Shown one piece after another: positions 7,001 through 33,340 of a stretch of DNA of 64,000 nucleotides. Positions within the stretch are counted from its first letter, which is position 1; each line of letters starts with the position of its first letter. Made by a program: the position numbers and the translations under genes. Source of the stretch: Halobaculum sp. MBLA0147 (GTDB lineage Archaea; Halobacteriota; Halobacteria; Halobacteriales; Haloferacaceae); contig NZ_JBGKAD010000002.1 of NCBI RefSeq assembly GCF_041361345.1, positions 186,001 through 250,000 of the forward strand. The letters are read 5' to 3'. The notes beneath the pieces were generated by a model. That model did no database searches. It saw only the letters and a program-made list of their open reading frames with translations, and was not told the origin of the DNA.

Positions 7001-7297
7001 CGCGACGGGTCGAGCAGCATTCACCTGCACCACACCCTGGGGCTCGAGCAGGGCTGGCTCGTCCGGCGTGCGGACATGGTCAACGTCCGGAGTAGTGACC
7101 TCGCGGTCTACTTCGCGGCCGACCCGTTGACGACGATTCGCGAGGAGTACATTGAGCAGTGTCCCGTCGCTGCCACGCGGCAGGCGACCACCGCCACCGC
7201 CGCCGCGAACAGTGCTGATGACAGCGGGCAGGATGCCGGCAAGGAGACGGATACCAGTTTGGCCACGAGGTCTGATGACGTGGAGGTGACCGAGTAG
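4055..7297 (+). CDS. Large tubulin/FtsZ-superfamily GTPase-like protein (Tubulin_2/FtsZl type)
   Basis: A 1080-residue protein. The N-terminus has a nucleotide-binding opening VIGIGHGGIELV (10-21), and the tubulin signature GGGTGSG lies at 185-191, followed by a helix and by VTLFGVLPSEYE (209-220), as in the tubulin/FtsZ GTPase core. Long helical, Glu/Arg-rich segments, probably coiled coil, occupy about 430-570, and the remaining C-terminal 500 residues match no fold I recognise. It is far longer than FtsZ (about 370). Makarova and Koonin (2010) described FtsZ-like families proposed to act in membrane remodelling together with a distinct GTPase. The adjacent membrane GTPase here fits that proposal. 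Start chosen at the ATG at 4055. Long minus ORFs in this stretch are shadows. Confidence 0.8.
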   Translation: MTSLSAPDRVIGIGHGGIELVKTLFEQEWYLDAILAPRHGDRNEVTVQFIDTATAEANELTTWCSEREAAIAERQAELRAPGEGDLGDISFETTIVTENIPQTDAVDLCGPAVVEDVARDRGFDPDDWWIDQTDVSETLDFAQGVYRRRGLAKATLFKALTEDRDLISDVDMIMQGEVAICVGLGGGTGSGLALDVARLIQENAPSSDVTLFGVLPSEYEHEDDRVGANAFAALSELEYAQAHQDAGPLFRDVVITPIDATGYEGKGGDTFGTATSLAEFDEAFSSVFVSYYHNQEENAFDKTPSHGPFTVAVPQIARYTVGNIDDASAAVEEAIDALESECSALAALYETTAEFLSNCGASQRPAELTKQDRRSLRNRLEWIADFVDQELFDELEFTTATQFQRKLADARDEGGDDIVDVIQTLQYLTKTLASDQTEFVDETDRRLAEVLQQAVKTLQTRSEVLQRVADIENSRMAKRVRETLQLRDTDTDDVSLIRSTLQTNLDHTTETVRELETTVEDKETAYETAMREHEETVADRMDTWRVETQSARDTVLALDPTHARRQAVQLKDALVEFITDLDAVTDPTEATEVPTDELEAAARELATTLQQGAETWETEQPAWWGNIAGAADQLRQARCVFLKGQADPGMRSHLPWMTATEQELAQHHKRAEELATSLRRDGVFDVQVTDDTFSATVTVDPAVVETEARERVQAAVDQVLAVTGDLATMDQATERDLETQLLEGNLERVEERVAGCIDTSVDGPTGLKTDLADTKADLEAAIDKQERLQALDSYFDTVVSAGYLDTVANARATRQAAMDEIDETQYVGDGADEYTYIKRVHPEDPLQHVNTADSLAASSLLDETERQRFAREVEQLAKTSLESEYSGLRERRLTHDATRYRDLKVNVGLVSAALDRFEGADFGLQQMMTNAFGLQNSASDFGTLTADVGGPWDMGVAVFIDGVFLDNLRNATEYRESYQARARDGSSSIHLHHTLGLEQGWLVRRADMVNVRSSDLAVYFAADPLTTIREEYIEQCPVAATRQATTATAAANSADDSGQDAGKETDTSLATRSDDVEVTE

Positions 7298-8943: not shown

Positions 8944-9786
8944 ATGAACGTCACACTCTACGAGACGACTGGCAGCCGTATCACAACGACCGGCGATACT
9001 GCTGGACGGGGGCACGAGGCGCCGCCGGTGAGAGACTGGTTCCACGAGGACGTGTGTGCCGTTTTCCGTGCCGATGGCACGACGGCTATCGTCCTTCGAG
9101 GGCAGCGGCACGGTGCTGGTCGGATCGACCAGTTCTATGCCGTTTTGCACCCTGAGGCTGACGAGTTGCCGTTGAGCGAGCCTACGACAGTGCGCGCGGA
9201 GCAGCACTCCACGGCCCGGTCTACTCACGCGGGCAGTCGTCAGACCACGGCAGGCGGTCCAGAGTGGCTTCGTGCCACAATCCGTGAGGTGGCGGATATC
9301 GATATCGTCGCGCACGGGGAGCGGTTCGCCGAAGTCCACCGCAAGGTCTTCGAGAGTGGTGCCTGGCCTGGTGACGAGGCTATGCTCCAAGTCTTGGGGA
9401 CGGAACTTGAGCCTGAGGCCCCGGTCGTGTGGACAACGGGTCGGGTCAGCACGGCTGTCATCGCCGGACGGATTGCCAGCGAGCAGTTGTCAACAGGCGA
9501 AGTCCTGGTGACTGCCGGTGAGCAAGATCTCGGATGGCAGTCGACGCCGACGGTTGTCATCCGTGTGGATAGTGCCAGCCCGTCGACAGCGGTGCGCCCG
9601 ACTGACGCGACTAAAGCTGCCATTGACGAGGCACGGCTTACGGCTTTCCAGCAGGCTGTGGCCCATGAGGCCGATAAGCTGGTTGAGACGACCAAGTTCG
9701 ATCGAGCGCGGATCTGGCGTGCATTGCTTTCCGCATGGCCTGAGCGTCCTGCAGTCACGCAGCGTCTCATCAGTCGGCTCCGCTAG
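8944..9786 (+). CDS. Hypothetical protein, last gene of the AAA/tubulin/GTPase operon
   Basis: A 280-residue protein, start ATG at 8944 (MNVTLYETTG), 43 bp downstream of the membrane GTPase. No known domain was recognised and there are no membrane segments. The middle part (about 110-215) alternates hydrophobic strands and helices (EVADIDIVAHGERFAEV, PVVWTTGRVSTAVIAGRI) that look like a soluble alpha/beta fold. The C-terminus is helical and Arg-rich. Close spacing and matching codon use place it in the same transcription unit, so it is probably a partner of the tubulin/GTPase machinery. A longer ORF beginning inside the preceding gene is less likely to be the true start. Confidence 0.65.
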   Translation: MNVTLYETTGSRITTTGDTAGRGHEAPPVRDWFHEDVCAVFRADGTTAIVLRGQRHGAGRIDQFYAVLHPEADELPLSEPTTVRAEQHSTARSTHAGSRQTTAGGPEWLRATIREVADIDIVAHGERFAEVHRKVFESGAWPGDEAMLQVLGTELEPEAPVVWTTGRVSTAVIAGRIASEQLSTGEVLVTAGEQDLGWQSTPTVVIRVDSASPSTAVRPTDATKAAIDEARLTAFQQAVAHEADKLVETTKFDRARIWRALLSAWPERPAVTQRLISRLR

Positions 9787-9948
9787 TGATCACACATCGA
9801 AGGCCAGGACCGGCTCAGCTGTGGCATCCAAGACGAGCTTACTGAGCAGGAGGAGTCAACATTCGGATACCCTGTCTAAAGGCATCTATTCTCATTCAGT
9901 AGTCGATACAGCACTTAGAGCGTGTACTCATGCGCTGAATCACCCGAA

Positions 9949-9972
9949 CCCGGAAACCCGGAAACCCGGAAA
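9949..9972. repeat. Short tandem repeat upstream of the Orc1/Cdc6-like gene
   Basis: Three perfect copies of cccggaaa, preceded by a partial copy, lie 44-67 bp before the Orc1/Cdc6-like ATG. It does not match the haloarchaeal ORB consensus that I know. An origin or autoregulatory role is only a possibility. Confidence 0.4.
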
Positions 9973-10015
9973 CACCCCCATCGAACCTTTCAGTCTGGCA
10001 CCGAACCACTCGGCC

Positions 10016-11040
10016 ATGATCACGAACGCGAGCGTCCTGCAGGAGGGGTTCGTCCCCAACGACTCCATCCACCGGAACCGCGAGGTGAACGCCCTCTCGC
10101 GCTCGCTGGACCCACTCACCCGCGGCCGCGCCACCGACCCGGTCCTCCTGACCGGCCCGTCGGGTGTGGGGAAGACGACCTTTGCGCGCTTCGCCGTTGA
10201 CCAACTCCAAGCGACCGTCCCCGAGGTACGAGCGGTCCACGTCAACTGCTGGGAGAGTCACACACGTCGGGCCGCCCTGTTCGACGCCCTCGAGTCACTC
10301 CAACTGGCGACGGACCTCCACCGCACCTCGACGAGTCACGACGAACTCCTCGACCGCCTCGCCGACGTCGACGCGCCGGTGGTGCTCATCCTCGACGAGG
10401 TCGATCAGTTGGACGACGCGAGTGTCGTCTACGACTGCTACGCCACGGCGGGCGTGACCACGATCCTGATCACGAACGACGAAGGCGAACTGCTGCACGG
10501 GATGGACAGCCGCGTGCGGTCCCGGCTGCAAACGGCCGATCACATCCACTTCGACGCCTACACCTCCCGGCAACTCGCAGACATCCTCCAGGCACGTGTC
10601 GACCACGGGCTCGTCGCCGACGCGATCTCGGAAGCGCAACTCCTGGAGATCAGCGACGCCGCCGCTGGTGACGCCCGCGTCGCCCTCTCGATCCTCCGCA
10701 CAGCCGCCCAGACGGCCGCGTACGAGGAGCGAGCCACGATCACCGACGGCGACATCGACGACGCCATCCCACGCGGAAACAGGCTGTGCGCGCCCAGACA
10801 CTCGACACGCTCCGAGAACCACAACGGGAGTTGTTCCGCCACCTCCAGGAGGCAGGCGAGATCGCCCCCGGCGAGTTGTACGAGGAGTTCGCCGCCACAC
10901 GCTCAGACCCGCCCACCAAGCGGACCGTCCGGTCGTGGCTCCAGAAACTCGCCCACTACAACCTCGTCGAGCGATCGGGGAACGGCCCGACGCGAACGTA
11001 CGCGCCAGTGCAGGAAGCGACGCACGTTCCGTCACCGTGA
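10016..11040 (+). pseudogene. Orc1/Cdc6-like AAA+ ATPase, frameshifted near 10778
   Basis: The first frame (10016 to about 10780) gives an AAA+ ATPase: Walker A GPSGVGKT (47-54), Walker B VVLILDEVDQL with DE at 127-128, sensor 1 ITND, then the helical lid ending DGDIDDAIPRG. The winged-helix C-terminus (LDTLREPQRELFRHL through VERSGNGPTRTYAP) is in the +1-shifted frame, open at 10786-11040. Adding one A to the short A run at 10777-10779 joins both parts (AIPRGKQAVRAQTLDTL), giving about 341 residues, normal for short haloarchaeal Orc1/Cdc6 proteins. It is therefore a recently inactivated gene or a sequencing deletion. Its codon use is more G+C-rich than the operon before it, which fits a separate origin. 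Replication initiation function is inferred from the family. Confidence 0.8.
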
Positions 11041-11265
11041 CACGCTGTAGGCTCACGAGCACCCTGCCCGAATACACGCACTGCTCGCCGACTATCAGGT
11101 TAGACTGTACTAACCAACAGCGACACCCAGTCAGACGCTTGTGTTGGTTAGCTTTTCGTACTCACCTTTCGTCACAGTATCGTATAGTTCCATTCATAAA
11201 TTGGTGCTACACCATGTCTGACGGATCGCTAATAGTAAGTACTAGAGCAACAAGTATCTAGCAGT

Positions 11266-18721: not shown

Positions 18722-20986
18722 GTGACTGTGCTCGGTGCGAGTGACATACTGGACAACCCAATCCGCGTCCTCTACGTGAACCCAGATTCTGCGTTTACAG
18801 AACTAGTTCAAACCAAGCTTCAACAGACAAGTCCTGAGGTCGACTGTCTGCGTGCCAACGGTGTCGACGAAACCCTAGATAATCTCCACACGGAGCGGAT
18901 CGACTGTATCGTGACAGCATACTCGCTTGATGATGCCAACGGAATCGAACTCACGGATTCGATTCGGCAACGGGACGAGGATATCCCAATAATCCTCTTC
19001 ACTGGACAGGGAAGTGAGGAGATTGCAAGCGAAGCGACTCGGGCCGGGGTCTCAGACTACATTCCACTCCGGTCAGAACGTGATAACTTCACATTACTCG
19101 CGGCCCGCATTCAGACGCTCACGAGGGCTGCTCGCGAACGCGAAAATGCCGAGCAGACGAGACGGCGCTTCCAACGAACGCTCGAACGCACCACTGATGC
19201 GGTCTACGCTGTCGATAGCAAGTGGCGTATCGAGTATATGAACGAGCGAATGGCCAAGCGAGTTGATCGTGACCCGGACGCGGTCGTTGGCAAGACCATC
19301 TGGGAGGAGTTCCCATCAATCGTCGGGACAGAACTCGAAGCCAAGTACCGAACAGCGATGGAGACCGGTGAGCCGGTTTCTTTTGAACAGTATCTCGAAG
19401 AGCCGTTCAACTACTGGGTTGCAGTGCGAGTGTTTCCAGACAGTGATGGGCTGACTGTCTTCTCGCGTGAGATCACCGACGATCAAAAGCAGGAACTGAA
19501 GGCAGAGCCTGGTGCCGCGATTGTAGAAACCATTCGCGACATCGTATTCGTGCTCAATGAGACGGGACACATCACGTTCGCAAATACGGCTGCAAAGCGG
19601 GTCCTCGCTGGAAATCAGTCAGCCCAACTCACAGGACAACGGCTCGAAACGGTCGTCGGTGATCGAATCAGCGACTCCGATATGACGCGGTTCTCCAAGG
19701 CGATCAACTCAGCACGTGCCAATGCCAACAACGATCGTGGGTCCAGCGGGTTGTATGATACAGACCTCCAGCTCGACATCGTGGTCGGGACCAGCAAACA
19801 GACGTTCGACGTTCGGGCAACCACATTCCAGACGCAAGCGAGCAATCAAGTGCTCGCTGTCGCCCGTAACATCACCGAACAGAAACAGTTAGAAACGCGT
19901 CTTCGATCACTTCAAGAAACCGCCCAACAGTTGAGCCACGCTGAATCGAGCGACGAAATCGGGACCATCGCGGTGGATGCGGCTGCCAAGATCCTTGATC
20001 TTGAGATTACTGGAATCTGGGAATACGACGAACAAGAGGAAGCGCTCGTCCCGATTACGGAAACGCCCACAGCACGAGATCTTATTGGCGAGTCTCCGCG
20101 ATTTACGCCTGGCGACAGTCTTGCCTGGGATGCGTTTGAGTCCGGAGAAATCAATGTATACGATGATGTTCAAGCCGAGGGACAGCCCCTCAATCCGAAC
20201 ACGGAAATTCGAAGTGAAATCCTCGTCCCACTAGGTGGATACGGGCTCATGGCGACTGGATCAGCGTCCAAGCGAGTCTTCTCAGAGACAGATATCGACT
20301 TATTTCGGATTCTCGGTGCGACTGTCGAGGCAGCACTCGCACGAGCGAGCAGAGAAGAAGAGTTACAACGGCAGAACGAACGACTTGATCAGTTCGCGAG
20401 CGTCGTTGCCCACGATCTTCGAAACCCACTTTCTGTCGCAAGTGGGTTCCTCGAAGTGGCAAAAGAGACTGGGCAAGCAGAACATTTTGAGCGAGCTGAA
20501 TCTGCCCACGATCGAATTGGACGGCTCATTGATGATCTCCTGACGCTAGCGCGTGGAGAGACAACAATCGAGAATACCGAGCAGATCGAACTAGAGGATG
20601 TTGCGACGGAGGCGTGGGGATACGTTGACACTGACGCGGCGACACTCACCCTTGCAGATGACGTTCCCACGGTTGCCGGTGATGCAAAGCGGTTGACCCA
20701 ACTTTTCGAGAATCTCTTCCGGAATGCAGTCGAACACGGCGGTGCCGACGTAACTGTGACCGTGGGTGGACTAGACGACAGGTTATTTTACGTTGAGGAC
20801 ACTGGCAGTGGGATTCCCGAAGCAATGCGAGACGATGTGTTCGACCACGGCGTCACGTCACATGACGGTGGAACTGGCTTTGGGCTCTCGATCGTAGCCG
20901 ATATTGCGGAGGCACATGGCTGGACGGTGTCAGTGACAGACGGCACCGATGGTGGCGCACGCTTCAATTTCAAGCAGTCAAAATAG
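18722..20986 (+). CDS. Receiver-like/PAS/PAS/GAF histidine kinase with degenerate receiver
   Basis: A 754-residue protein. An N-terminal receiver fold (about 14-130: RVLYVNPDS, DCIVTAYSLDDANG, ILFTGQGSEEIASEA) lacks the phospho-acceptor: the position matching Asp in DCVVSDYE-type receivers is A66, and the acidic pocket DDD reads NPD. Two PAS domains follow (about 148-258 and 263-385), then a GAF domain (about 390-545). The H-box is VVAHDLRNPLS, with H564. The HATPase has LFRNAVEHGG, VEDTGSGIPEA and GTGFGLSIVADI. It is soluble. The pseudo-receiver probably acts as a protein-interaction or dimerisation module and is not expected to be phosphorylated. Confidence 0.88.
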   Translation: MTVLGASDILDNPIRVLYVNPDSAFTELVQTKLQQTSPEVDCLRANGVDETLDNLHTERIDCIVTAYSLDDANGIELTDSIRQRDEDIPIILFTGQGSEEIASEATRAGVSDYIPLRSERDNFTLLAARIQTLTRAARERENAEQTRRRFQRTLERTTDAVYAVDSKWRIEYMNERMAKRVDRDPDAVVGKTIWEEFPSIVGTELEAKYRTAMETGEPVSFEQYLEEPFNYWVAVRVFPDSDGLTVFSREITDDQKQELKAEPGAAIVETIRDIVFVLNETGHITFANTAAKRVLAGNQSAQLTGQRLETVVGDRISDSDMTRFSKAINSARANANNDRGSSGLYDTDLQLDIVVGTSKQTFDVRATTFQTQASNQVLAVARNITEQKQLETRLRSLQETAQQLSHAESSDEIGTIAVDAAAKILDLEITGIWEYDEQEEALVPITETPTARDLIGESPRFTPGDSLAWDAFESGEINVYDDVQAEGQPLNPNTEIRSEILVPLGGYGLMATGSASKRVFSETDIDLFRILGATVEAALARASREEELQRQNERLDQFASVVAHDLRNPLSVASGFLEVAKETGQAEHFERAESAHDRIGRLIDDLLTLARGETTIENTEQIELEDVATEAWGYVDTDAATLTLADDVPTVAGDAKRLTQLFENLFRNAVEHGGADVTVTVGGLDDRLFYVEDTGSGIPEAMRDDVFDHGVTSHDGGTGFGLSIVADIAEAHGWTVSVTDGTDGGARFNFKQSK

Positions 20987-22080
20987 TACCCGCTGCCAGT
21001 GTCCGACTCGTGTCAACGACATCTATATTGAGGTGGTCAGTCCCGGGGACTGGAGTGCGTGAACCCATGAACCGACTGACTGTCGGTCAGTCAAGGCTCG
21101 CCGTCGCGCAGGTATGCAATTCAGACGAGAACACCACCGTTCGAACCGCTCTACCACTGGCCATGAGAGGGGTCATTGAGGGTAGCTACTGTCAGTACCA
21201 CGGGTGAAGGATCCAGCCCGTTGACTCAGTGCTTCGAAATCGGTGGGGGTGTTACTAACCAACACCGTAGAGGATAGCGAAACAGGGGTGAGTAGCTACA
21301 TGTCTGGTACGCTCCATCTGTCAGCTAGTGTGAGTGGCCTGAGACGGCGTGAGCGATCGCGTAGTCCGTTGAGCCATTCACTGGGATTGTGCCCTCAACG
21401 AGCAGGGACTGGCTGTACACAGGAATTGAGAGGGGCGCAGTGCGCAGTGGCTCGGTCAGTGGAACGGAACTGGTGCCCACCAGTTGAGCGTTATTGTGAC
21501 GACTCAACGCACGCAGCAGCTGTGAGTGTGATGCTTGATCACCAAGCGCTCAAGTAATGCAGTCACCTAGTGTAGTCACCGGGTGTATTCCACGTACCAG
21601 ACTATCGTGTGCCCACACGGTACTGGTGTGGTCCTTCCCCGAGCCTTGCACCCGGTTGCCGATGGCCTGGTGAGTGCTGGCTGTTGGTACCCCTGTCCGG
21701 ACAAACTGCGCTGAGCGCGAGTGCGTTGCGTTGCCAGACGAGATGTGAGCGTGTCGACGCGGTATGTGGTGTCGAGCCATGCAAGTGTACGTGGGGCACG
21801 CCGTCGTGTCCCCCTGACGACACGGCCGTGTCCGCGGCCGGCAGCCTGGCCACTCGGACAGGCCAGCAACCGCGGCATCCACTCCTTCGTGTACGAGCTC
21901 CCGTGGGGTGTCCGTGTACGAGAGTGTGGTGACCCGACCGGGGCTGTCGGCGTCGCTACGGCGACGCTGCTGCACCGTCGCCACCGCCCTGTATGAGCGG
22001 CGACCGCGATGCGGTGGCGTTGAGCATTTGGCACCGAGTGTGATGCGCTCGTCTCGGGGTCCGACGACGAGCACGGGGTT
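20987..22080. other. Long gene-poor region, left part
   Basis: About 1.1 kb. Several overlapping frames on both strands reach 80-180 codons (for example minus 21550-22074 and 21576-22112), but none has a recognisable domain, a ribosome site or acidic haloarchaeal composition. It looks like decayed coding DNA. No RNA gene was seen. Confidence 0.4.
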
Positions 22081-22560
22081 GTTTCCTCAGCGACGCGACG
22101 AGCGTGTGGCAAACGGGTGCCCTCGTCGGAGACAGCAGTCGTGATCAGCGTCCCCCCTTAACGGAGGTGCAACCACGTCGTGATCAACGGGTGCCTCGGC
22201 AGAGGCAATCTCGTCGGAGACGGCAGTTGTGACCCACTGGCCCTGGTCGGAGGCTGTCTCATTAGAGTGGCGTCGCGATCAGGGTGGTGTCGGTGGTGAG
22301 TAGTCCACCGTAGTGAGCGGGTTCCTCGTCGGGGGGTGTCTCGTCAGAGTGGAGTTCGTGGTCAGCAGATACTTCGTCGAAGGCTGTCTCATCAGGTGGA
22401 GCTCGTGGTCAGCGTCGCTCGACTCCGGGGTGGTGCGTGTGTGGTGAGCGTTCCTCGTCGGAGGTGTGGTAGCCACATGTTCTGTACCTCATCGGAGGCA
22501 CTCTCGTCTCGTGTCGCCGTGCCTCGCCGGAGGCGGTAGTCCCACCCTGCGCTCGATCCA
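22080..22560 (-). pseudogene. Decayed acidic repeat-protein gene
   Basis: The plus strand shows at least six degenerate copies of a roughly 45-60-bp unit around ctcgtcggagg, gtctcatcagagtgg and cgtggtcagc. Read on the minus strand the pieces give acidic peptides such as ADHELHSDETPPDEE and TAVSDEIASAEAPVDHD, but small indels break the frame between units. It is best read as the remnant of a low-complexity acidic haloarchaeal protein; no complete frame survives. Confidence 0.45.
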
Positions 22561-22766
22561 CTATCAATTCCCCTACATGTCTGTGGGGCCCGGTTGCCCC
22601 CCGTTACGCAAATAGAGAATACCATATACCAGACGACCACCCCGAAATGCGGGGGTGCTCCAAACCCCTGCAAGAAAGGTAAGTTAAGCAGACTATATCC
22701 AGCAGAGGAGACTAGGAAAGTGACCCCTAAAGTCCTAAAACGCTGATTCTTGGTAACATTCAGGGG
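22561..22766. other. Gene-poor spacer before the iteron cluster
   Basis: No gene was seen. The base composition drops towards the iteron-like cluster that begins at 22760. Confidence 0.3.
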
Positions 22767-23004
22767 GTGTGAAGGTGCGTGTGAAGGTTTCAACCTTCAG
22801 GGGGTGTGAAGGCGCGCAGTATGGTAATTTTCGAGTTTGGATAGCACCTGTCAGCAGGGCTATATTTATATGTGCAAAAAAGTGGGGTGAACCTTCACAC
22901 CTTCATGACCAGATAGTGGGGTACTAAGCGTGAAAATCGAATATACACAATTATTTAGTTGCGACAAATGACGGCTCTTGTCAGGTGTGAAGGAGGTGTG
23001 AAGG
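22760..23004. repeat. Iteron-like gtgtgaagg repeat cluster (candidate replication or transfer origin)
   Basis: Five direct copies of gtgtgaagg (22767-22775, 22779-22787, 22804-22812, 22985-22993, 22996-23004) and one inverted copy (22892-22900) lie within 245 bp. Two copies sit in a longer direct repeat, ttcagggggtgtgaagg (22759 and 22796). Arms gaaggtt/aaccttc form a short palindrome at 22783-22798. An A+T-rich stretch (22860-22880, 22940-22960) lies inside the cluster. It follows the 3' end of the giant coupling-ATPase/primase gene. Iterons next to an A+T-rich segment are typical of plasmid origins; the function is inferred. Confidence 0.6.
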
Positions 23005-23170
23005 CCGACGCTGTATGGTTAATTCCGGGTTTATGATTTCAACTAGTCCACTGTGTATAGATATGGGCGAAAACGCTCTTCCTGGCGACGTAGACCACAT
23101 ATGCTACTCTGTAGAGTAGTCTCTTAAGTAGGGAGAGGGTCTAAAAAGAGATTACTCTGTCGTTAGTGGT

Positions 23171-26100
23171 TCAGAGCTCAATCCTTTCTCTTAGTTGTTC
23201 ACCAAGCTTGGTCAGTTGGCATGGGTACACTGCTTGCACGGATCCAGTAGAACTGTCAATCCACTTTTTGTCCTTATCAGCTTCTTCTGGGAGAAGGCTC
23301 ATAAGATTGTCATCTGATGAGAACTCCTGTTTGGAGTATGGCTCAATTTCAGTTTGTGACACGTATTCTTCAAACATCAACATAAGTGCGCGCGTCGAAA
23401 CCCTCCAATCAGGACCTACATCCGGTTCACTAGGGCTCTCTTTCACTTCTAATATGTCTTCAACAAACTTCCCCAGCGCATCTTCCTTCGACTGGAAATT
23501 TCTAGATAGAGATGGTGATAGCTTAGATCCAGGGGATGATGTTTCTGCTGATGCAGCAGATACAGACGAATTGTTGCTGGTATTACCATCAGTTTCACCA
23601 CGTTGGGCGCTCCCAGTCTCATTGTTCTGAGGTTCGTTCTGGTATCCGCTGCGGGGAGTCAACACTGGATCGATCGACTGATTCTCGCTGAAGTGTGTGA
23701 TCGCTCGGTTGTAGGCCTCATCTGAGAGACCGATGAATGAGCTGTTATCACCGTCGTCTCTCTGTACGGGCACCTTTTCGAGATCGTCAGGGCCGTCAAT
23801 GATCCCGTGGCGTTTGGCGTAGGCCGTGAGTGCTCGCGACGGGATTTTCCCTTCGTCTCGGTCCTCCGGAAGGAGGCCTTGGTGCTTCGCGTATGTCCAT
23901 ATCTGCAGGAGTTCATCAGCACTGATGTCGCGGTCAAGGTCATTAGAGGACGGCCAGCGGGCCCCGGACGCGACCAAGAGCGCGGTCGTCCCGTCGTACC
24001 ACGTTTTCGTATTGAAGTCGTAGCCTCTGACCCCAGCGTCCTTGTTAACGATCATGAAGTAGTCGTCGGAACCGCCGTGATTACCGAAGGGGTTCGGGCC
24101 ATGGTAGCCGACACTCTTCTGGCAGACATCCCTGAATTCGACATCATAGACGGCTGTCTTTTCAGTTCCAGACGCGTTGTCTAATGTATCGGCCAGCTGG
24201 TTGGGCACACTGAATCCAGGAATGGCCGCAATATCCGGCGAGGCAGCAGGGTGGTACTTCGCGTCAATCGCCGGGACCATTCCAAACCAGTCTGCTATCG
24301 GGAGGTCTTCAGGAATGTCCGCTGTTGGATTACGGGTGGGCGTCCAGTTGCCGGCCTCATCGGTCGGGGAGAGGGCGTCACCGAAGTGCCTGTCCATCCA
24401 CTGCCGTTCACGGCCTTTCGTGACCGGCTCGTCGTTGTCGTAGCCAATCTGGCTGTAGGGATCATCGTCGGGAGCGGCGTGACTCGATCCCGCTGAGGAG
24501 GGGATATGAGGCTTGTCGGCCCACCTGATTGCTGGCGAGAGGTCCTCGCGGCTGTCGATGGTGGCGTCTGTTGGCACCTCCGGTGTGGGATCTTCGAATG
24601 GCGGCTGGCCTCTGTCTGGCGCGTTTGAAGCCCCCCTCGTGTGCTGAGGCATGCACGCAGCGGTGTGACCGACATCGGTGGCCCGGGAGCTGATTTGCAT
24701 GTGCCCGTCACACGCTAGCTGAGTGATCCACGAGTCATCGGGGCCGGGATCGTATTGGTCGATGTCGTCGGTTCCAACTTCGCTGTAGACGTGGAACACC
24801 CACGGGACAGGGGGTATGAGTTCGAGCCACCCGCCCCGGAGGTAGTCGTCGAGGTCGACACCTTCGGGATCGAATCCTGGGAGGTACAGTATCCGGGCAT
24901 CAACATCGCTGCCGTTCTCAAGCTTTTCGCAGAGTGTGACTGCCCTTTTGATTCCAGCGCCGGAGCATTCGACGTTGAGTACGTCACCGATGGGGCCTTG
25001 TTGGCCGAGACTGACGTTGTGTCCCGCGTTGTGGAGTGACAGTGCGCCATCAATATCTTCACTTCCTGTACCTGCGGGGACAGGGAAGTTTAGTTTCACA
25101 CGGTAGGAGTCGGACACGAGTGCATTTGGCACGGTGACATCAGTGACGGTTTGACCTCTCTCGGGGTCCTGAGTTCCGTCAAGGCCGATAACCTGGTCAG
25201 CGAATTCCGGATCAGGGTTTGAACCTGTATTTTCGATAACTAGGTTCTCTCGTGTGATGGGACGGGCTGCGACGCGTTGCGCTTGTGCGTCTCGCTTGTA
25301 TTCTGTATCAGTTGTCGGGACATCTTGACCGTATCCTGTTGCTTCCAGAGAACTACTGAGGTTGGTCCTGAGTGTCACTTTCTCAGTGTTCTCCGCCTCA
25401 GTTGCGGCTACAGCAGTGGGGACATCGGTACCGTTGACGATGTAGACGGTCGGAATGTCGAATTCATCAATGAGTCGGGTTACTGGATCGATATATTTGT
25501 CCTTGGATTGGGTCGTCACCGGTGAGATCGCCGGAATGCCGAAGTCGTGGCAGGTGATCGCGTCTGCAATCCCCTCCGTGATAACGAGTGGTTCGCCTTC
25601 GTTGATCGAGGGAATCCCATAGATTGGCTCCTCAACGAACGTGTGGTCTGCGCTCTGGGAGAGTTTTTTATACTTCGGGCCGTCGTCTGTGTGTGGCGGC
25701 CGTCTCGTGATGAAGTATACAGGGTCTCCCTGGCTGTTGAAGTATGGAAAGACGAAGCGGTTTTTGAACGTCTTTGGGACCTTCACATCGTAATACTCAG
25801 TCAGTGAGCCGTCGTGGTCGTCAGGCATCGGATCGACCGGGTACGCAGATTCCTCTTCTGTCGTGGGGATCGAGGATGGGTCTGCTGGAATGTAGCCGAG
25901 TTCTCGGGCTGTCTCACTGGGACCGAGCTCATCAAGATCGGCGTGAGGCTTGAATAGGGAGGCAGCGAGCATCTGTTCGCGGGTGATATCTTTCTGTAGG
26001 AGGCGTTTAAGCAGCGCTTCTGAATCGTTTAGAGCATACCCGAGGTACTTTTCGTCAGCGATGTCCTCACTCCACCCGCGTGAGGTGACAGTGTAGAGCT

Positions 26101-29100
26101 GACCTTTGAGGTCGTGTTTGCGGTGGTCCGAGAGTCTGTCTGGGGAGTGGCGAGTGAGGCTGACATCCCCATTGTCGACTGTTAACTCGTACAGCGCGTC
26201 GGTGAAGTAGTCCTCAGGATGAATCGGTGGGAGCCCGCCTTCGTCGGTCGGGGGACTGAGTGTGGCGATCTCCTCAACCGTCCAGTCGCCAGGAAAAGCG
26301 TCTGGATCGTACGGGAGCGTTTGTTCCCACCGGCAGTTCGCGTCTTCGTAACCGCGTTCGCCGTTGTAGCGTCGAGCTGCTTCGAGAACTCTCCAGTGAG
26401 GGAGTTCTCCGCCGTTCTCGTCAACGATCGATTGGACGTTATCAAGCCACGTGTTTACGCTGTGCGTCGTCGCGGTGAGGAATGGACTTGCGGCCTTCGC
26501 CTGCTCAAGTGTCTGCGGGGCGAGCGCAGCCGCGCGGAAGGCCTCTGCCGCCGCCGTGAGTGCCTCCTGAACTGGAGTGCTTGGTTCGCTATCCACCTCT
26601 CCAAGGTCAGGTGTGTTGACCTTGGTGTCTGCCATGACTGCTTCGCGTACAGTGTCATAGGGCTGTTCGGTTTCAGTGTCGGTACTGTCGGATTCACCGT
26701 CTGAATCATCGTCAAGTTCGTTTTCTGCGTTCAATACCCCGGGGTTAGTCTCGGTCCCATCAGCGTCGGCTCCGGTCGTAGAGTCATCGGAAGTGTTTGT
26801 TCGGTCGTTATCGCTGCCAGCGAGTTCCGACATATGGGTGTCGACAGTGTGGTCATTGGTGTCCCCGGTGTTGGTATTATTTTTCTGTGGATTGTTGGAT
26901 TCCGAGTTGGGTCCTGGATCATCGTCGTTGTCGTCCTCCCAGTGAGCGTTCGCATGCCCTGATCCGGTTCCTAGCCCAATTGGGACCGCTCTGTACTGAC
27001 CATTGTCTTCTTCGATTGCCCCTGCGTCAACGAGTCGGGTGACTTCTGCCTTTGCTTGTTCAAAACCAGCGGATGATGTTTGCTGAGCGCTATCGAGAAG
27101 CAAGTCCCAGGTGAGTGGATCTTCTCCGATTGTGTACGGGCTATATTCCCAGATGTCGACGACACGCGGATCGTACCGTGTCCTGATTCGTTCGTACAGG
27201 TGTCGATCAGTGTCGGGCCCCGTCTCGCTCTCGGGTCGGGTCTCGACGTGCTGAATATGAGTATTGATTACACCTAGCTGGAGGAGAGATTTTGTGATAA
27301 TCTCTGTCGGGACGCCCCTAGTGACGTTCTCATCTTTCCTTCTAATTGCGACTCTGATGGCTTGCGTGAGCGCACGCTCCATCCTCGCTGCCTCCGGCGG
27401 TCCAGCGGCTTCGAAGATGGATTCCCAGTTGGCCGCTGTGAACCGGTGTTCTGGCGGGATGAGTTCACCTGGCCGGGTTTTTGGCGTGACAACTGTGAAG
27501 AACGGTGTGTCCGCCTCCACGTCAGGAAGTTGCATGATAGCACTCTCCCATGCGTCGCCTCCGATCTGCCGGAAGTAGTCCTCAGCTGTCGTTGTGAGGA
27601 GCCAGCCCGCTTCAAGCCCGATATCAATCGCGTCGTCCGCGGGGCCGTCAACAGTGATGCCGGTGTTCTGGATAATCATCCCACGAAGTTGGTTCCGCGT
27701 AACGACTTCGCCGTCTCCAAGTTTGGTATCTGGAATGTTCTGATCAACCGGTGTGTCTTCGGGACCTGTGAGTTCAGGTTCAACCAGTTGTAACCAGAAG
27801 TCGTAGGTACTTGCCTGTTCGGCGGTCGTTGCGGCTTGCTTGACGACGTCTGCCTTCGTGGGGTCGAAGCGAGTGTAGGTTGTCGTCTGTGCGGGTGTGT
27901 ATCGATCAAGATGTTTCATTGGTCGGGATGGTGTGTCGACAGTGCTGGATGCAGACTGCTCAGATGCGGTATCGTCGCCGAGATACTCTCCGTCCTGCTC
28001 GGCGAGTTCGTCGCTCGGGTGGCTACTGACAGGCTCAAGTGCTGTGTCTCGACTAGCAAGTGTTTCCATCCGGTGGACCCCCTCACGGTACTCGGTCAGA
28101 AGCTTGATATGCTGTTCACCTGCTTTTGGGTTGCCTGTAATGTCGTCGACGATCTGTTTATCCTCCCACTCATCGGGGGAGAAAAGCCACTCATAGTCAC
28201 CGCGATTATACATCAGTGGAAGCTTGGAGGCACGAATCCACACCTCTTCGTCAGCATCTGCATCTGCTGGGTACTGGGGCGGCGTGTAATGTGCAAGACG
28301 GCCACTGTGGCCCGCCTCAGTCTTATCACCTCTATTTTCGTTTATGGGGTTATCATCGGGCGAGCTACCATCGTCTGCACTTTGCTGTGCGTCTGCTTGG
28401 CGTGTCACTGCAGGCGCTCTATGGAGGACCTGATAGTCGAACTGCGTCGGGTCGTCAATGTTGAATTCGACACGCGGAACAAGTGGTTGTGGAACAATTA
28501 GATACTCTCGCTCAAGTGTGGACTTGTTATCAACCGTCTCTTCACCACTAGAGTGATGAACAGTATAACTACCATCTGAATTCTCTTCAGCGTATATTTT
28601 AAATTCAGTGCAATCAGCGTTAGCTACCGCTTCAGGACTCAGTGACGCCCACTCTGTCGCGTCTGGTCCTCGGTCATCGTAAAGTCGAATCCTGTCGTCG
28701 TCTGGACGCGATACCCACCACGCCTGGTCGCGTCCGCTTCCAGACCGCTCAATCAGCGGGTAGAAGGTGGCGTTTGAGTTGATATTAAGTGGGAGTGGGT
28801 TGCGCTTATTATACAAGATATCGGCTTCCCGGTTTAATGGGTGAGACTCCGACATCCCCGGTGGTGTGAGTGTTTGCTCCTTCCGTAGTACTGGCTCTTG
28901 AAATACATCAGTAAGCACGCTTGGTGCGTATCCTATGTCTCGGTCTCTACCATCGTTGATATCATTCACGTGTGGGGTCACGTAGACGGGGACTCGGCCA
29001 GCATCATCCGCTCGTGATGCTTTCATGATAACCATACCAGGCTTCTTAAACGTGCTCGATTCAGATTCGATCCGGAGCGGTCGGCCGTCAGATAAACGAG

Positions 29101-32100
29101 ACACTACCTCGTTTTTCTCTATGAATGCATCGAGCCGCTCGCTGAGGACAGAGATCGGAGCGCTATCACGATCAACTGGGATGAGACCTTCCCCGTCAGG
29201 AGCCTCTTGTTGTGCTTGTTGCTGTTTGACAGTTGGAACATAGCCGGTTTTTGCGAGGAAAGCAAAGATCTCACGGATCCCATACTTGTGAGAGTCCTTT
29301 TGTCGGTTAGTCGGATCGCCACTCTGAAGCACGTGCTGTATCCCGGCTTCAGTGATACTCACCTCAATCGATGGGTGGGCAAGATGCTCGAGTGGAACCT
29401 CTTTGTCTTCGTGCTGCTCAGTCGCCGTGTTTGTTGCTCGCTCTGCGTCTCGTGGGTACACACAGTCGACAAACGCTGTCGGGATGTACACGCCATCTGT
29501 GAGATCTTCGAAGTCGGTGTTGTATCGCTGGTTGAACTGCGGAATTACTTCCTTGAGTGGGAGCCGTCCCGTTCCGGTGTCATTCCGGATTTCGCTTTCC
29601 CAGATTGCTTCGAGCATACAGTGCCGGGCGAGGCCGTCGCGCTCGGCACGATCAAGGATCAACTCAAGTTCTGAGAGAGCATCCTGGTTTGGCTCTTTCC
29701 CGGTTTCATCAAGTCGCTCTCGGAGGCGTTCTGTCACCTCGTTGCGGGTCCAGCGTGGTGGCGTCGGCGGGAGTGATTGAACTGTCGTGGCCTTCCCAGG
29801 GACGATCCCAGCGTCCAAGCCGTCGTCAATCAGCGGCTTGTGTTTGAACAAGTACTGCGGGAGCCCACTGAGGTCACCTCCCTCTACCGTCTCATCGAAC
29901 TGCTTGGCGATTCGCTCGGCGTCTTCGTCGTTTTCCAACTGGAACGCTGCCTGATACTTGGTATTCCCGAAAATCTGATCCAAGACGTCGGCGTCGATCT
30001 GTGACGGGTTCTGCGAGGCGACATACAGCCCGAGGTTGGCCGATCGGGCGAGAGCGAGGATTTCCGGTAGTCGGAAATTTTTGTTGATGATCTCGTGTAG
30101 CTCGTCGATGAACGCGAAAAACGGGGGCAGGTCTTTGCCCTCCTCTTGCCGGGACCGCACTGCAGACCAGATCCGGCGGATGACAGCCACCGCAATCAAG
30201 CGCTTTGAGGATCTTTTTTGAACGGAGGGAGAAACGACGATGATTTTCCCCTCGTCGACAGCCTTGTCGAAGTCGACGGTTGACTCGCGGTTGGCGATGA
30301 TACTCCGAGTGATGGGATTTTCAGCCCACTGCTTGATCCGGCGAATCAACGGCTCGATTAACTCATGGTCCATCTGCCGGATGGTCTCGGCGAACTCAGA
30401 CTCAATCTCTAGGCCTTCGTCTTTCACCGAGTCGACGAACGTGTCCAGTGCCTCGGGGTCGTTGAGGATCTTGAACATATCCACCAGCGTGTAGTTGCGC
30501 CGAGAGCGGATCATCGCGTTCGCCATCGTTTGAGCAATTCCATCCATTCGAGCGCCGAACACGTCGTCGCCTTTCAGTGCGCCGACGAGGTCTTCGATCT
30601 GTGACTCAATGGCGGTGTTCTTCTCGATCTCGGACGGCTTGTTCGGCTCTTCGAGGAAGTTGAGAGCCACTGATTTGCTGAACCGCTTGTCGGCCGGGTC
30701 GATGTAAATCACGTCGTCCCAGCGGTCTTCGGGAACACGGCGCAGTACTTCGGTGACGAAGTCGCCCTTCGGATCGATCAAGAGCGTCCCATGACCTTTC
30801 TCGATTACCTGGTGCGCTTTGTTGATGAACGATGTCGTCTTCCCGGCTCCGGAGGATCCGAATTCCCAGCCGTGGACGTTCCACGCCGCTTTGGGAATCC
30901 CGACTTCGCGATAGCCAGCACTCCGTCCCTGGGCGAGTCCCATGAAAATGGGCTGATCGGGATGTTCGCTCTGGCTCTGGATGAGTAGTTCGTCGAGGTC
31001 TCGACCGAGGAGCGGCCCCTCTTCTTCGGTGTGGACGACAGTCTCGATCTCGCCTCGCCAGCCGGACTTTGGTGACGTGTACAGTTCGCGCTTGGTGTCT
31101 GTGATAGTGAGGTCAAGCGGTGTATCGTAGGATGCTCCGCTGGGAGCTTCGACAGGCCCCGGCTCAGAGGGTCTGATTTCGACATCGTCTTCACTGCTGT
31201 CTGCGTAGGTTGTGTCAGTTGAGCCGGGCTCCGAGTCGTCAGCGGTGGAAGTCCGTTCGGGAAGGTTTTCTGAGTGACTTGCTGCGGATGCAGCTGCTGT
31301 GGTATCAGTGGTACTGCTGGGTGTCGGATCAGTGGTCGACTGTGCGTGCGTCTCTGTGGTGGCCGTGTCCTCAATTGGCGATTGCCCGCTGTCAGCTGAT
31401 CGATGAGCGGATACGGTGGAGTTCGGCGTGGAGTTGTCGGGTGAGGGTGCTTGTTGCTGGGTTTGGTCGGCAGGCGACGTCTCGGCTTCCTCCGACACCG
31501 TCTCTCCCTCTGCTGTGGGTTCTTCAGTATGTATGTCTTTTTCGGGTGTTGGGTGCGGGGTGGGAGATCCTTCTGTGTGGGTTGTGACGAGACAGTCCGG
31601 GCGTCGCCCTTCGTCGTACAGTGCAGTGTCAAGATCATCGGGCGTTTCAATCTCGTTTTGAATTGCCCACGTGACCTTGTCTCCATGACCTGTGTACACG
31701 CCTGCTATCGCGTCGATGCTGAGTCCAGCGTTGTGGTATTTCTCGTAGTGTGTGTCGTACCCGCTGGTCGTGAGGATGTTCCGAAGCAGTTCCACTTCGT
31801 CGTCATCGAGTTGACGGATCGAGGCGAAGTCTTCCGGGTCATCGAATCCGTGAGTATCGTGGAGGATTTCTCCGTCACCCGTTTCTGCCGACCCCGACGA
31901 CAGGCGTGTGTGCGCGATTGAGCTGGCGGACTGGGCGAGCCGGGTGACACGCTTGAGTGGCTGCGTGATCAGTGCCTTTGTTTGAGTGAATGGGTGCCGG
32001 TTCCACGTCTGCTTGTAACGGTGGTAGCGCCAGCGGAGACTCCGGTTATCCTCACCTGGCTCGACGTGTTTGCCTTGGAATTTATCTGGAATTGGTGGGG

Positions 32101-33340
32101 CTGTGGTGGTGATCGAGGTGTCGGTGGTGATTTTCTCAGTGATGTCGGTTTCGCCGGTGGCTTCAGTGAACGATTCTTCGCCAGCGTGATCGCCTTCTGT
32201 ACGACCGATCCCACCACCACCGCTGTTCGTCCAAGAGATAGCCGGTGAGACTACTGTCTTGTTTGGCGGGTGGACGATCCCAGCGAGTTCTGTGGCGGTG
32301 AGAGTGACTTCTCGGTCGACGAGATCACGCCGACCGGCCCGGGTGAGCGCGTCCTCCATGTTCACCGCGTGGATGGGAAGTGCTTTGAAGCGCTGTTTGT
32401 ACTTGGGCGTCTGGAACCGTCGTTCAAACGTCTGGCCGATGTCGCTGGCTGTTCTTGAAGCCGACTGGGCGCGTGGGGAGAAGACAAAGTACCGGATGTT
32501 GACATCGAAGGCCGTCTGCTCATCTAGGCCTTTCAGATAGTCAGAGTAGTCCTGCTCCCACTCTTTCGGATCGCGGTTGCGGTAGGAGAATGGACCGGTC
32601 TTCTCAAACTGCTGCATGTCATAGTATTTTCCGATGGTTTCGGCCGGCTCTTCGTAGAAGCGGCCTTTGGTCCAGTTATTCGCGGCGGGCCGCATCACGA
32701 CTTGGACGAGGACTTTTTCATCGGTGCGTGCAGCAATTGACCCCGTAAGTGATTTTAGTGGGTCTGGGTCCCGGTCTGGCTTGTAATTAGCCTCTTCATC
32801 AATCTCGTATGTCTCAATTGGTCGGTAGCGTGGGTTTTTGAGTTCAAAAGTCCCTCCACTGACATAGTAGTGGCTACCAACCTCAGGCCAGACTCGCTCT
32901 CGTGTCGTGAGTTCTGAGTCGGGATAGTAATCAGAGACAAGCTCGTTAAGTGCCGCATAAGATCGGTCGTTCGGCACTATATAGTTCAAATCCAGGTATT
33001 CACCATCCCACCAGAACTCGTATGAGACGGGGTCTGGTGCACCTATAATCTCCCCACTCAACAGGTGTTGAGTTTTTGAATATTCCCATATATAAGTGTG
33101 AAGTCCTGAGACAAACTCTTCCCCGACGAGGAGTCCGTCACCTTCCCGATATGGCCGAAGCCCAAGCACTGCTGAGTCTTTATGAACTGATAGAGCCTCT
33201 TGTAACGCAGTGCGAAGTTCCCTATTGAAGTGAACTGGCTCGTACGGAACCTGCATCTTATATTTCTGAATGATAGTTTCTATGATACTACTAACTGCTC
33301 CTGAGGGACTGGTCAGTTGTGAGCTGTTTGTTCCGGTCAT
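23171..33340 (-). CDS. Giant fusion: conjugative coupling ATPase (VirD4/TraG-HerA-like) plus Toprim/primase-like region
   Basis: A single uninterrupted 3389-residue frame. Residues 1-570 are an N-terminal region of the kind found in haloarchaeal conjugation ATPases. A Ser/Thr/Asp/Glu linker spans about 585-740. The FtsK/HerA-type ATPase has Walker A GSSGAGKT (828-835), LLIDPKGDF, Walker B FFAFIDELHEI (D1079, E1080) and ARSANLGLYVASQNP, as in type IV coupling proteins. The central 1250-2170 region has winged-helix-like and Trp-rich segments with further acidic linkers. Near 2480-2680 a primase/helicase-like part contains FVFPYFNSQGDPVYFITRRP, then Toprim motifs VITEGIADA (E2589) and YIVNGTD (about 2634-2639). 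The last 700 residues are unknown. It would pump DNA to a recipient and possibly prime it. A TATA-like element (ttaaga, minus) lies about 20 bases upstream. Confidence 0.78.
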   Translation of the reverse strand: MTGTNSSQLTSPSGAVSSIIETIIQKYKMQVPYEPVHFNRELRTALQEALSVHKDSAVLGLRPYREGDGLLVGEEFVSGLHTYIWEYSKTQHLLSGEIIGAPDPVSYEFWWDGEYLDLNYIVPNDRSYAALNELVSDYYPDSELTTRERVWPEVGSHYYVSGGTFELKNPRYRPIETYEIDEEANYKPDRDPDPLKSLTGSIAARTDEKVLVQVVMRPAANNWTKGRFYEEPAETIGKYYDMQQFEKTGPFSYRNRDPKEWEQDYSDYLKGLDEQTAFDVNIRYFVFSPRAQSASRTASDIGQTFERRFQTPKYKQRFKALPIHAVNMEDALTRAGRRDLVDREVTLTATELAGIVHPPNKTVVSPAISWTNSGGGGIGRTEGDHAGEESFTEATGETDITEKITTDTSITTTAPPIPDKFQGKHVEPGEDNRSLRWRYHRYKQTWNRHPFTQTKALITQPLKRVTRLAQSASSIAHTRLSSGSAETGDGEILHDTHGFDDPEDFASIRQLDDDEVELLRNILTTSGYDTHYEKYHNAGLSIDAIAGVYTGHGDKVTWAIQNEIETPDDLDTALYDEGRRPDCLVTTHTEGSPTPHPTPEKDIHTEEPTAEGETVSEEAETSPADQTQQQAPSPDNSTPNSTVSAHRSADSGQSPIEDTATTETHAQSTTDPTPSSTTDTTAAASAASHSENLPERTSTADDSEPGSTDTTYADSSEDDVEIRPSEPGPVEAPSGASYDTPLDLTITDTKRELYTSPKSGWRGEIETVVHTEEEGPLLGRDLDELLIQSQSEHPDQPIFMGLAQGRSAGYREVGIPKAAWNVHGWEFGSSGAGKTTSFINKAHQVIEKGHGTLLIDPKGDFVTEVLRRVPEDRWDDVIYIDPADKRFSKSVALNFLEEPNKPSEIEKNTAIESQIEDLVGALKGDDVFGARMDGIAQTMANAMIRSRRNYTLVDMFKILNDPEALDTFVDSVKDEGLEIESEFAETIRQMDHELIEPLIRRIKQWAENPITRSIIANRESTVDFDKAVDEGKIIVVSPSVQKRSSKRLIAVAVIRRIWSAVRSRQEEGKDLPPFFAFIDELHEIINKNFRLPEILALARSANLGLYVASQNPSQIDADVLDQIFGNTKYQAAFQLENDEDAERIAKQFDETVEGGDLSGLPQYLFKHKPLIDDGLDAGIVPGKATTVQSLPPTPPRWTRNEVTERLRERLDETGKEPNQDALSELELILDRAERDGLARHCMLEAIWESEIRNDTGTGRLPLKEVIPQFNQRYNTDFEDLTDGVYIPTAFVDCVYPRDAERATNTATEQHEDKEVPLEHLAHPSIEVSITEAGIQHVLQSGDPTNRQKDSHKYGIREIFAFLAKTGYVPTVKQQQAQQEAPDGEGLIPVDRDSAPISVLSERLDAFIEKNEVVSRLSDGRPLRIESESSTFKKPGMVIMKASRADDAGRVPVYVTPHVNDINDGRDRDIGYAPSVLTDVFQEPVLRKEQTLTPPGMSESHPLNREADILYNKRNPLPLNINSNATFYPLIERSGSGRDQAWWVSRPDDDRIRLYDDRGPDATEWASLSPEAVANADCTEFKIYAEENSDGSYTVHHSSGEETVDNKSTLEREYLIVPQPLVPRVEFNIDDPTQFDYQVLHRAPAVTRQADAQQSADDGSSPDDNPINENRGDKTEAGHSGRLAHYTPPQYPADADADEEVWIRASKLPLMYNRGDYEWLFSPDEWEDKQIVDDITGNPKAGEQHIKLLTEYREGVHRMETLASRDTALEPVSSHPSDELAEQDGEYLGDDTASEQSASSTVDTPSRPMKHLDRYTPAQTTTYTRFDPTKADVVKQAATTAEQASTYDFWLQLVEPELTGPEDTPVDQNIPDTKLGDGEVVTRNQLRGMIIQNTGITVDGPADDAIDIGLEAGWLLTTTAEDYFRQIGGDAWESAIMQLPDVEADTPFFTVVTPKTRPGELIPPEHRFTAANWESIFEAAGPPEAARMERALTQAIRVAIRRKDENVTRGVPTEIITKSLLQLGVINTHIQHVETRPESETGPDTDRHLYERIRTRYDPRVVDIWEYSPYTIGEDPLTWDLLLDSAQQTSSAGFEQAKAEVTRLVDAGAIEEDNGQYRAVPIGLGTGSGHANAHWEDDNDDDPGPNSESNNPQKNNTNTGDTNDHTVDTHMSELAGSDNDRTNTSDDSTTGADADGTETNPGVLNAENELDDDSDGESDSTDTETEQPYDTVREAVMADTKVNTPDLGEVDSEPSTPVQEALTAAAEAFRAAALAPQTLEQAKAASPFLTATTHSVNTWLDNVQSIVDENGGELPHWRVLEAARRYNGERGYEDANCRWEQTLPYDPDAFPGDWTVEEIATLSPPTDEGGLPPIHPEDYFTDALYELTVDNGDVSLTRHSPDRLSDHRKHDLKGQLYTVTSRGWSEDIADEKYLGYALNDSEALLKRLLQKDITREQMLAASLFKPHADLDELGPSETARELGYIPADPSSIPTTEEESAYPVDPMPDDHDGSLTEYYDVKVPKTFKNRFVFPYFNSQGDPVYFITRRPPHTDDGPKYKKLSQSADHTFVEEPIYGIPSINEGEPLVITEGIADAITCHDFGIPAISPVTTQSKDKYIDPVTRLIDEFDIPTVYIVNGTDVPTAVAATEAENTEKVTLRTNLSSSLEATGYGQDVPTTDTEYKRDAQAQRVAARPITRENLVIENTGSNPDPEFADQVIGLDGTQDPERGQTVTDVTVPNALVSDSYRVKLNFPVPAGTGSEDIDGALSLHNAGHNVSLGQQGPIGDVLNVECSGAGIKRAVTLCEKLENGSDVDARILYLPGFDPEGVDLDDYLRGGWLELIPPVPWVFHVYSEVGTDDIDQYDPGPDDSWITQLACDGHMQISSRATDVGHTAACMPQHTRGASNAPDRGQPPFEDPTPEVPTDATIDSREDLSPAIRWADKPHIPSSAGSSHAAPDDDPYSQIGYDNDEPVTKGRERQWMDRHFGDALSPTDEAGNWTPTRNPTADIPEDLPIADWFGMVPAIDAKYHPAASPDIAAIPGFSVPNQLADTLDNASGTEKTAVYDVEFRDVCQKSVGYHGPNPFGNHGGSDDYFMIVNKDAGVRGYDFNTKTWYDGTTALLVASGARWPSSNDLDRDISADELLQIWTYAKHQGLLPEDRDEGKIPSRALTAYAKRHGIIDGPDDLEKVPVQRDDGDNSSFIGLSDEAYNRAITHFSENQSIDPVLTPRSGYQNEPQNNETGSAQRGETDGNTSNNSSVSAASAETSSPGSKLSPSLSRNFQSKEDALGKFVEDILEVKESPSEPDVGPDWRVSTRALMLMFEEYVSQTEIEPYSKQEFSSDDNLMSLLPEEADKDKKWIDSSTGSVQAVYPCQLTKLGEQLRERIEL

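Follow-up and report, generated by a model that had tools for sequence, protein, structure and literature searches.

A replicon-specific iteron array with a constant core element beside a giant ATPase-primase gene: a candidate replication origin module of haloarchaeal replicons

Is a compact array of short repeats lying just past the 3′-end of a giant haloarchaeal gene part of a replication origin and, if so, with which part of the neighbouring protein does it belong? The array lies in contig C2 (451,027 bp) of Halobaculum sp. MBLA0147, the genome of which comprises 4.29 Mb in six contigs. The window analysed is a stretch of 64,000 nucleotides (bases 186001–250000 of C2); coordinates are those of the window unless a contig is named. 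An earlier note, made from the sequence alone, had described an iteron-like cluster with origin-like features at this place, composed of six copies of a 9-mer, a 17-bp direct repeat, a palindrome and an A+T-rich segment, ∼170 bp from a gene for a coupling ATPase/primase.

The window contains eight copies of the 9-mer, GTGTGAAGG, where 0.50 would be expected and where none of 100 shuffles gave more than three. Six of the eight cluster at 22767–23004, well beyond chance: five on the plus strand (22767–22775, 22779–22787, 22804–22812, 22985–22993 and 22996–23004) and one inverted, on the minus strand (22892–22900). The 17-bp repeat TTCAGGGGGTGTGAAGG was found in two exact copies starting at 22759 and 22796, which enclose the first and third iterons (22759–22775 and 22796–22812), and the palindrome TGAAGGTT-TC-AACCTTCA at 22782–22799; the 25-nt pair around the 17-bp repeat and palindrome is 92% identical. 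The distance to the gene was also as described, the array ending at 23004 and the minus-strand reading frame at 23171, which places the array 166–404 bp beyond the stop codon of the gene, the product of which has 3389 aa. An A+T-rich segment is indeed present, although a mild one (62–66% in 50-bp windows that begin at 22825 and 22925, versus 37% for the whole window). Conservation of GTGTGAAGG itself was considered and rejected, the 10-mer GGTGTGAAGG clustering only here in the host genome. DNA searches gave no match for the array region against plasmids, nor for the gene-poor gap of ∼2.2 kb (20986–23171) that extends beyond the stop of the giant gene. Gaps of ∼2.2–2.8 kb without annotated genes also lie 3′ of the giant gene in other replicons (L059, L060, L083 and L084).

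The giant gene (23171–33340, minus strand) encodes an N-terminal part, a TraD/HerA-type ATPase region (residues 781–1230; 29651–31000, minus strand) with TraG-D_C, TrwB and HerA matches and a TIGR03743 match at 6.5e-10, a DnaG-type primase region (residues 2480–2622; 25475–25903, minus strand), and a winged-helix domain in its last 130 codons (23174–23563, minus strand), the predicted origin-binding domain. The primase part, of Toprim/DnaG type, matches PF08275 at 5.4e-6, over the cut-off, and TIGR01391 at 4e-9, far under the cut-off. When the full-length protein was scanned against Pfam at E-values up to 1, the only matches were DNAG_N, TraG-D_C, HerA_C, TrwB and DUF87, with no SF3/D5 helicase. 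Elsewhere in the window (4055–7297), a 1080-aa protein bears a tubulin-like GTPase domain.

Relatives of the primase part were found in 40 of 391 genomes of the class and in 14 of 72,556 plasmid records. All 19 distinct intact loci examined at which the gene terminates in this type of winged-helix domain have, within 1.1 kb downstream of the gene, a replicon-specific repeat array adjoining one constant element. These loci are C2, C4, L059, L062, L063, L064, L065, L066, L067, L068, L070, L081, L083, L086, L168 and those of genomes G010 (L256), G013 (L257/L137), G115 (L265) and G047 (L262); 17 were reached by protein similarity, while for L168 and L262 the core element was the only route, and a biased one. 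Duplicates (L073, L082, L060, one of L083/L069, L084 and L085) were excluded before counting, as was L057, the gene of which extends over the end of its record; G007, matched by protein, stands outside the 19, being a broken remnant that lacks both the winged helix and the core element. The array is therefore not missing from the other elements that carry the giant gene, but present at every intact winged-helix homologue examined. The repeats themselves vary from locus to locus (TATCCGGGGG, GGTCAAGGGG, TGTCCGGGGG, TGTCGGAGGGG, GGTGTGCAGGGG, CTGTGCGGGGG, GCGGACAGGGG, GGTGGGCAGGGGG, GGTTGCAGGGG and others), most of them ending in a G-run, GGGG, and the distance of the array past the stop is similar within groups (about 290–735, 660–1040 and 166–430 bp). 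Repeat counts in the arrays exceeded those of dinucleotide shuffles but, at several loci, not those found where the coding sequence of the gene is itself repetitive; since counts alone do not always rise above coding sequence, the case for the array rests on its place, its form and the constant element. The description as an origin-like iteron cluster is thus well supported, with the correction that the repeat is replicon-specific rather than conserved, the constant part being the adjacent TGAAAATAACCAKACGG.

The homologue at L083, on a plasmid of Halorubrum sp. PV6, is broken into two open reading frames and its array is retained. Primase homologues of ∼1100–1800 aa on other plasmids (13 loci: L055, L056, L058, L061, L071, L072 and L074–L080) have another C-terminal end, and showed no repeat array that stood out from the repeats within their own coding sequence. 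Three of these, L055, L056 and L058, are complete plasmids of 10.8–23.7 kb with shorter primase homologues (coding sequences of 1246–1764 aa), possibly representing another replication module. At L093 (G197:C29), the gene for a stand-alone TraD-like ATPase is followed, at a distance of 758–1213 bp, by a degenerate GATAGGTG repeat field of an unrelated kind. When phage records were compared with the primase part, only two weak Listeria phage matches were obtained.

Every array contains TGAAAATAACCAKACGG, or a near copy, beside its repeat clusters and oriented as the gene. There are two copies in the window, both on the minus strand: AACTCGAAAATTACCATACTGCGCGCC at 22811–22837 and AACCCGGAATTAACCATACAGCGTCGG at 23005–23031. 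When both strands of the 450 kb of C2 were scanned with a matrix built from 23 sites of other replicons (C2 and C4 being left out), these copies ranked first (21.8) and second (20.8), the third-best hit scoring 14.0; in C4, the array copies ranked first (23.6) and fourth (12.1). The pattern GAAAATAAYYAKACG gave 19 matches in 16 of the 391 genomes, 16 of them inside such arrays (in 13 of the 16 matching genomes); the remaining three (G020, G099 and G220) had no array within 160 bp on each side, and the reversed pattern had no match in the genomes listed. A further pattern, GAAAATNAMCAKAC, composed after the C2 and C4 arrays had been seen, occurs exactly three times in the whole host genome, always in these two arrays. 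Exact core-pattern scans of genome contigs, where most matches were chance ones in A+T-rich bacteria, and of viral contigs, where 38 stretches matched, yielded between them at least two useful haloarchaeal loci (L137 and L168).

The earlier note had described the array as lying next to a giant transfer gene. Of the parts of this gene, it is the primase/winged-helix part that the array follows, not the transfer (coupling-ATPase) part. The complete plasmid pHG3 (113,655 bp) has the array and the core element with no ATPase hit, its version of the primase/winged-helix part comprising 1117 aa, and a complete H. rubrum plasmid (93,698 bp) has both with only a ∼75-aa remnant of the ATPase. At L086 (G129:C2), a gene of 2441 aa with no detectable primase part retains the winged helix, the iterons and the core element. 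In contrast, L087, an ATPase-only gene, has no such array past its 3′-end, and seven stand-alone ATPase loci lack the GGGG-type array and core element. Taken together, these loci link the array to the winged helix.

AlphaFold predicts a winged helix for the last ∼110 residues of the giant protein, with a mean pLDDT of 81.3 for the domain of L063 and 70.6 (moderate confidence) for that of C2. When compared by VIA-align with 1ka8, the origin-binding domain of the P4 protein, the L063 model gave Z 7.1 (80 residues, 2.6 Å) and the C2 model Z 6.6 (85 residues, 3.1 Å); the tail of the African swine fever virus primase gave 7.2 and 6.4, and values under 8 can reflect a common arrangement. The top structural match was the RFX DNA-binding domain (Z 8.9 and 8.3), the tail domains of NrS-1 and pRN1 were not among the high ranks, and the winged-helix relaxosome protein 5vfx appeared among the weak matches (Z 3.6). 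With the L063 model, Foldseek gave no match that reached E 0.001, and Pfam Pox_D5 matched 6 of 13 members with a best E of 4.3e-4, below the curated cut-off. The models are suggestive of a P4-like winged-helix fold for the tail.

A second replicon of the same genome, C4 (226,510 bp), bears a paralogous giant gene (3375 aa; 92% identity over the ATPase region), downstream of the stop of which there are eight copies of GGGTGCAACA: the same layout as in C2, but a different repeat. A single long homologous DNA segment is shared by C2 and C4, consisting of the gap and the giant gene (C2 207748–219179). Per 100 alignment columns, the two proteins share 55–96 residues up to column 3200, and beyond it 47 of 93 and then 24 of 83. 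Between flanks of 77% and 80% identity lies a block with no alignable C2/C4 DNA (22679–23633, equivalent to C2 208679–209633), made up of the array and the last ∼154 codons, which we propose to be a specificity cassette. On the far side of the array, a non-coding block (22560–22678; C4:206581–206700) is 89% identical in the two replicons and, among 170 genomes of the family, present only in the host. The possibility that 22560–22690 encodes an RNA was discarded, with no Rfam match and folding z-scores of −0.18 and −0.04. The gene-poor gap also contains a second repeat family, CTCGTCGGAGG and its variants (22100–22535; 206.7–207.2 kb in C4), which, unlike the iterons, is the same in C2 and C4.

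The comparison across loci showed the same kind of replacement. Among 34 related pairs, many of them non-independent, the array was alignable over 33% or less in 27 of the 29 pairs with different iterons, although the upstream gene could be aligned in those pairs wherever its sequence was included. The two exceptions were L081/L065 (96% of the array covered) and L083/L168 (78%). In pairs with the same iteron the array was unbroken in four of five, the exception being L068/L081 (19%). Homology often came back 0.5–1.1 kb past the stop. Replacement, then, usually takes in the array together with the domain-coding gene end, as one block.

Within this block, the repeat and the wing of ∼12 residues vary jointly, replicon by replicon, in lock-and-key fashion. 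The domains of L064 and L168 are 85% identical, yet their wings differ (PSVEGGKQVRT versus PRFENKPRKTV), and so do their iterons; L168 and L083, 74% identical, have the same wing type and the same iteron type. Conversely, the domains of L068 and L081 are only 44% identical, but the wing is near-identical (EGRGRPRC) and the iteron the same. Over 17 loci, iteron distance tracked wing distance (Mantel r 0.45, P = 0.0001). A partial Mantel test controlling for the rest of the domain gave P = 0.0014, P = 0.013 when two near-duplicates were dropped (15 loci) and P = 0.043 when a third locus was dropped; the reverse partial test was not significant (0.067–0.10). Since wing columns and iteron consensus were set by eye and the loci are related, these P values are to be taken as a guide.

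The array, the constant element, the predicted fold of the domain, the co-variation of wing and iteron and the replacement of the block make up the findings, and are best accounted for by an iteron-type replication origin that belongs to the giant gene and has the array as its initiator-binding part, a reading to which we assign a probability of roughly 0.68. The organisation would resemble that of SaPI Rep and P4 alpha, except that the primase is of DnaG type, the motor is of TraD/HerA type and an SF3 helicase was not detected. By analogy with those systems, the giant protein is likely to dock on the iterons: its C-terminal winged helix would bind the replicon-specific repeats, the wing reading their variable half. 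Binding would bring the protein's own primase and ring-forming-type ATPase to TGAAAATAACCAKACGG, where, and in the A+T-richer DNA between the clusters, the strands would be opened and primed; that the TraD/HerA-type motor, which is of the transfer/translocase kind, does the melting is conjecture. With the array right next to the domain-coding 3′-end, the specificity of recognition could be exchanged as one cassette, which would allow replicons related to each other, C2 and C4 among them, to coexist in one cell.

The same arrangement might instead serve transfer, the array being an oriT, or a relaxosome or coupling site, and the giant protein a conjugative coupling ATPase that also primes the transferred strand, with the winged helix tying the motor to oriT. 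The ATPase region fits TraD/VirD4-type models (TIGR03743, TraG-D_C and TrwB), its stand-alone relatives bear the annotation of type IV secretion coupling proteins, and the relaxosome protein 5vfx is found among the weak fold matches. We nevertheless regard this as unlikely: array and core element persist on pHG3 and on the H. rubrum plasmid, so that linkage to a coupling ATPase does not hold in every case, while L087 and the seven stand-alone ATPase loci lack both; moreover, 14 of 14 plasmids with the primase part were typed as non-mobilizable, by a typing scheme that was not made for archaea. Iteron arrays act as operators and centromeres in many plasmids, and an operator or partition centromere for the giant protein or for another plasmid protein, with no role in replication start, would also sit well with the second repeat family, CTCGTCGGAGG, in the same gene-poor gap. 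This appears more improbable still, given that the array is downstream of the gene, that most loci have no annotated gene start within ∼1 kb on its far side, and that the co-variation of wing and iteron points to a primase-linked protein and not to one resembling ParB. The least probable of the alternatives, to which we give very little credence, is an Orc1/Cdc6 origin with the GGGG-ended repeats as origin recognition boxes (ORBs) carrying the haloarchaeal G-string. There is an Orc1/Cdc6 gene in the window (9518–11050), and haloarchaeal ORBs end in a G-string (PMC3528665), as do most of the iterons here; however, known origins of this type in haloarchaea have inverted ORBs directly adjacent to orc/cdc6 (PMC3528665). 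Five of the six iterons in C2 are direct, the nearest Cdc6 gene is ∼12 kb from the array, and differences in the repeat go along with differences in the giant protein's winged helix.

Whether the module drives replication of C2 is a separate matter. GC skew, taken as a mark of the origin, went against the array as the main origin of C2: cumulative skew has its extremes at ∼57 and ∼255 kb in C2 and at ∼7 and 158 kb in C4, away from the arrays (208.9 and 206.3 kb, respectively). The C2 maximum at ∼255 kb adjoins an Orc1/Cdc6 gene at 253.5 kb, and this region is likely the main origin of C2. Since C2 and C4 carry their own Orc1/Cdc6 genes, the array need not be a working origin; with the skew extremes away from it, replication of C2 may start mostly at another site, and the module may be auxiliary or dormant in this replicon. 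It may even be a passenger, i.e. a replication cassette captured from another plasmid and dormant while C2 fires from its Orc1 origin. This would agree with the gap and giant gene being the only long segment shared by C2 and C4, with the 53–56% GC of the 200–220 kb region (66–70% to its right) and with the position of the skew peak. Against it, the gene (3389 aa), both core elements and all six iterons are intact. We take the passenger state to be a serious possibility, albeit one that we would not favour; it is compatible with the array being by nature the initiator-binding part of an iteron-type origin.

That kind of organisation has precedents. In staphylococcal islands, the initiators SaPI Rep and SCCmec Cch2 have a C-terminal DNA-binding domain by which iterons immediately downstream of their own gene are recognised (PMC7581432); the giant gene has the same layout. 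They differ in having SF3/D5-type or DUF927-type helicases and archaeo-eukaryotic primases, where the archaeal giant protein, of 3.1–3.4 kaa, joins an ATPase of TraD/HerA type to a primase of DnaG type and the array has a constant core element. P4 alpha is far smaller than the giant protein and has an SF3 helicase. Such a helicase (D5-type) in the same protein, a trait of the P4 alpha/pRN1 ORF904 family, was not found in the giant protein. P4 alpha, with its ori/crr iterons, pairs a primase of the Toprim (DnaG) type with a winged helix at its C-terminus by which repeats are bound (PMC4234260); the giant protein has the same type of primase and a predicted winged helix at the same end, the modelled tail being similar in fold to the P4 domain, 1ka8. 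The pRN1 ORF904 replicon of Sulfolobus is likewise an archaeal plasmid, with its origin downstream of the primase-helicase gene (PMC4234260), but that origin is a 100-nt stem-loop without iterons, and the protein has a prim/pol primase and an SF3 helicase. With the haloarchaeal Orc1/Cdc6-ORB origins the array has in common a terminal G-run, putative reading of the repeats by a winged helix and linkage between initiator family and repeat (PMC3528665); it differs in having no adjacent orc/cdc6, mostly direct repeats and a different initiator. The organisation is therefore known, but the protein architecture and the archaeal wing/iteron cassette do not appear to be described in the PMC open-access papers that were searched.

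A broader proposal, which we advance tentatively and consider rather doubtful as a whole, is that these proteins form a new class of archaeal initiators: one protein of 3.1–3.4 kaa that combines an exchangeable winged helix and a primase of DnaG type with a motor of the TraD/HerA conjugation type, and in which a transfer motor would act as origin helicase (or would link replication to transfer). The origin would consist of one constant element and replicon-specific iterons, and the swappable wing/iteron cassette would set compatibility groups, providing a natural recognition code. The replication of large haloarchaeal plasmids is usually attributed to Orc1/Cdc6 origins; if the array and the giant protein do act as origin and initiator, there would be a second, widespread type of initiator, which can be found by one constant element. 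It would also offer many natural wing/iteron pairs for the study of the recognition code and of plasmid compatibility, and would raise the question of whether a conjugation-type motor can serve as an origin helicase.
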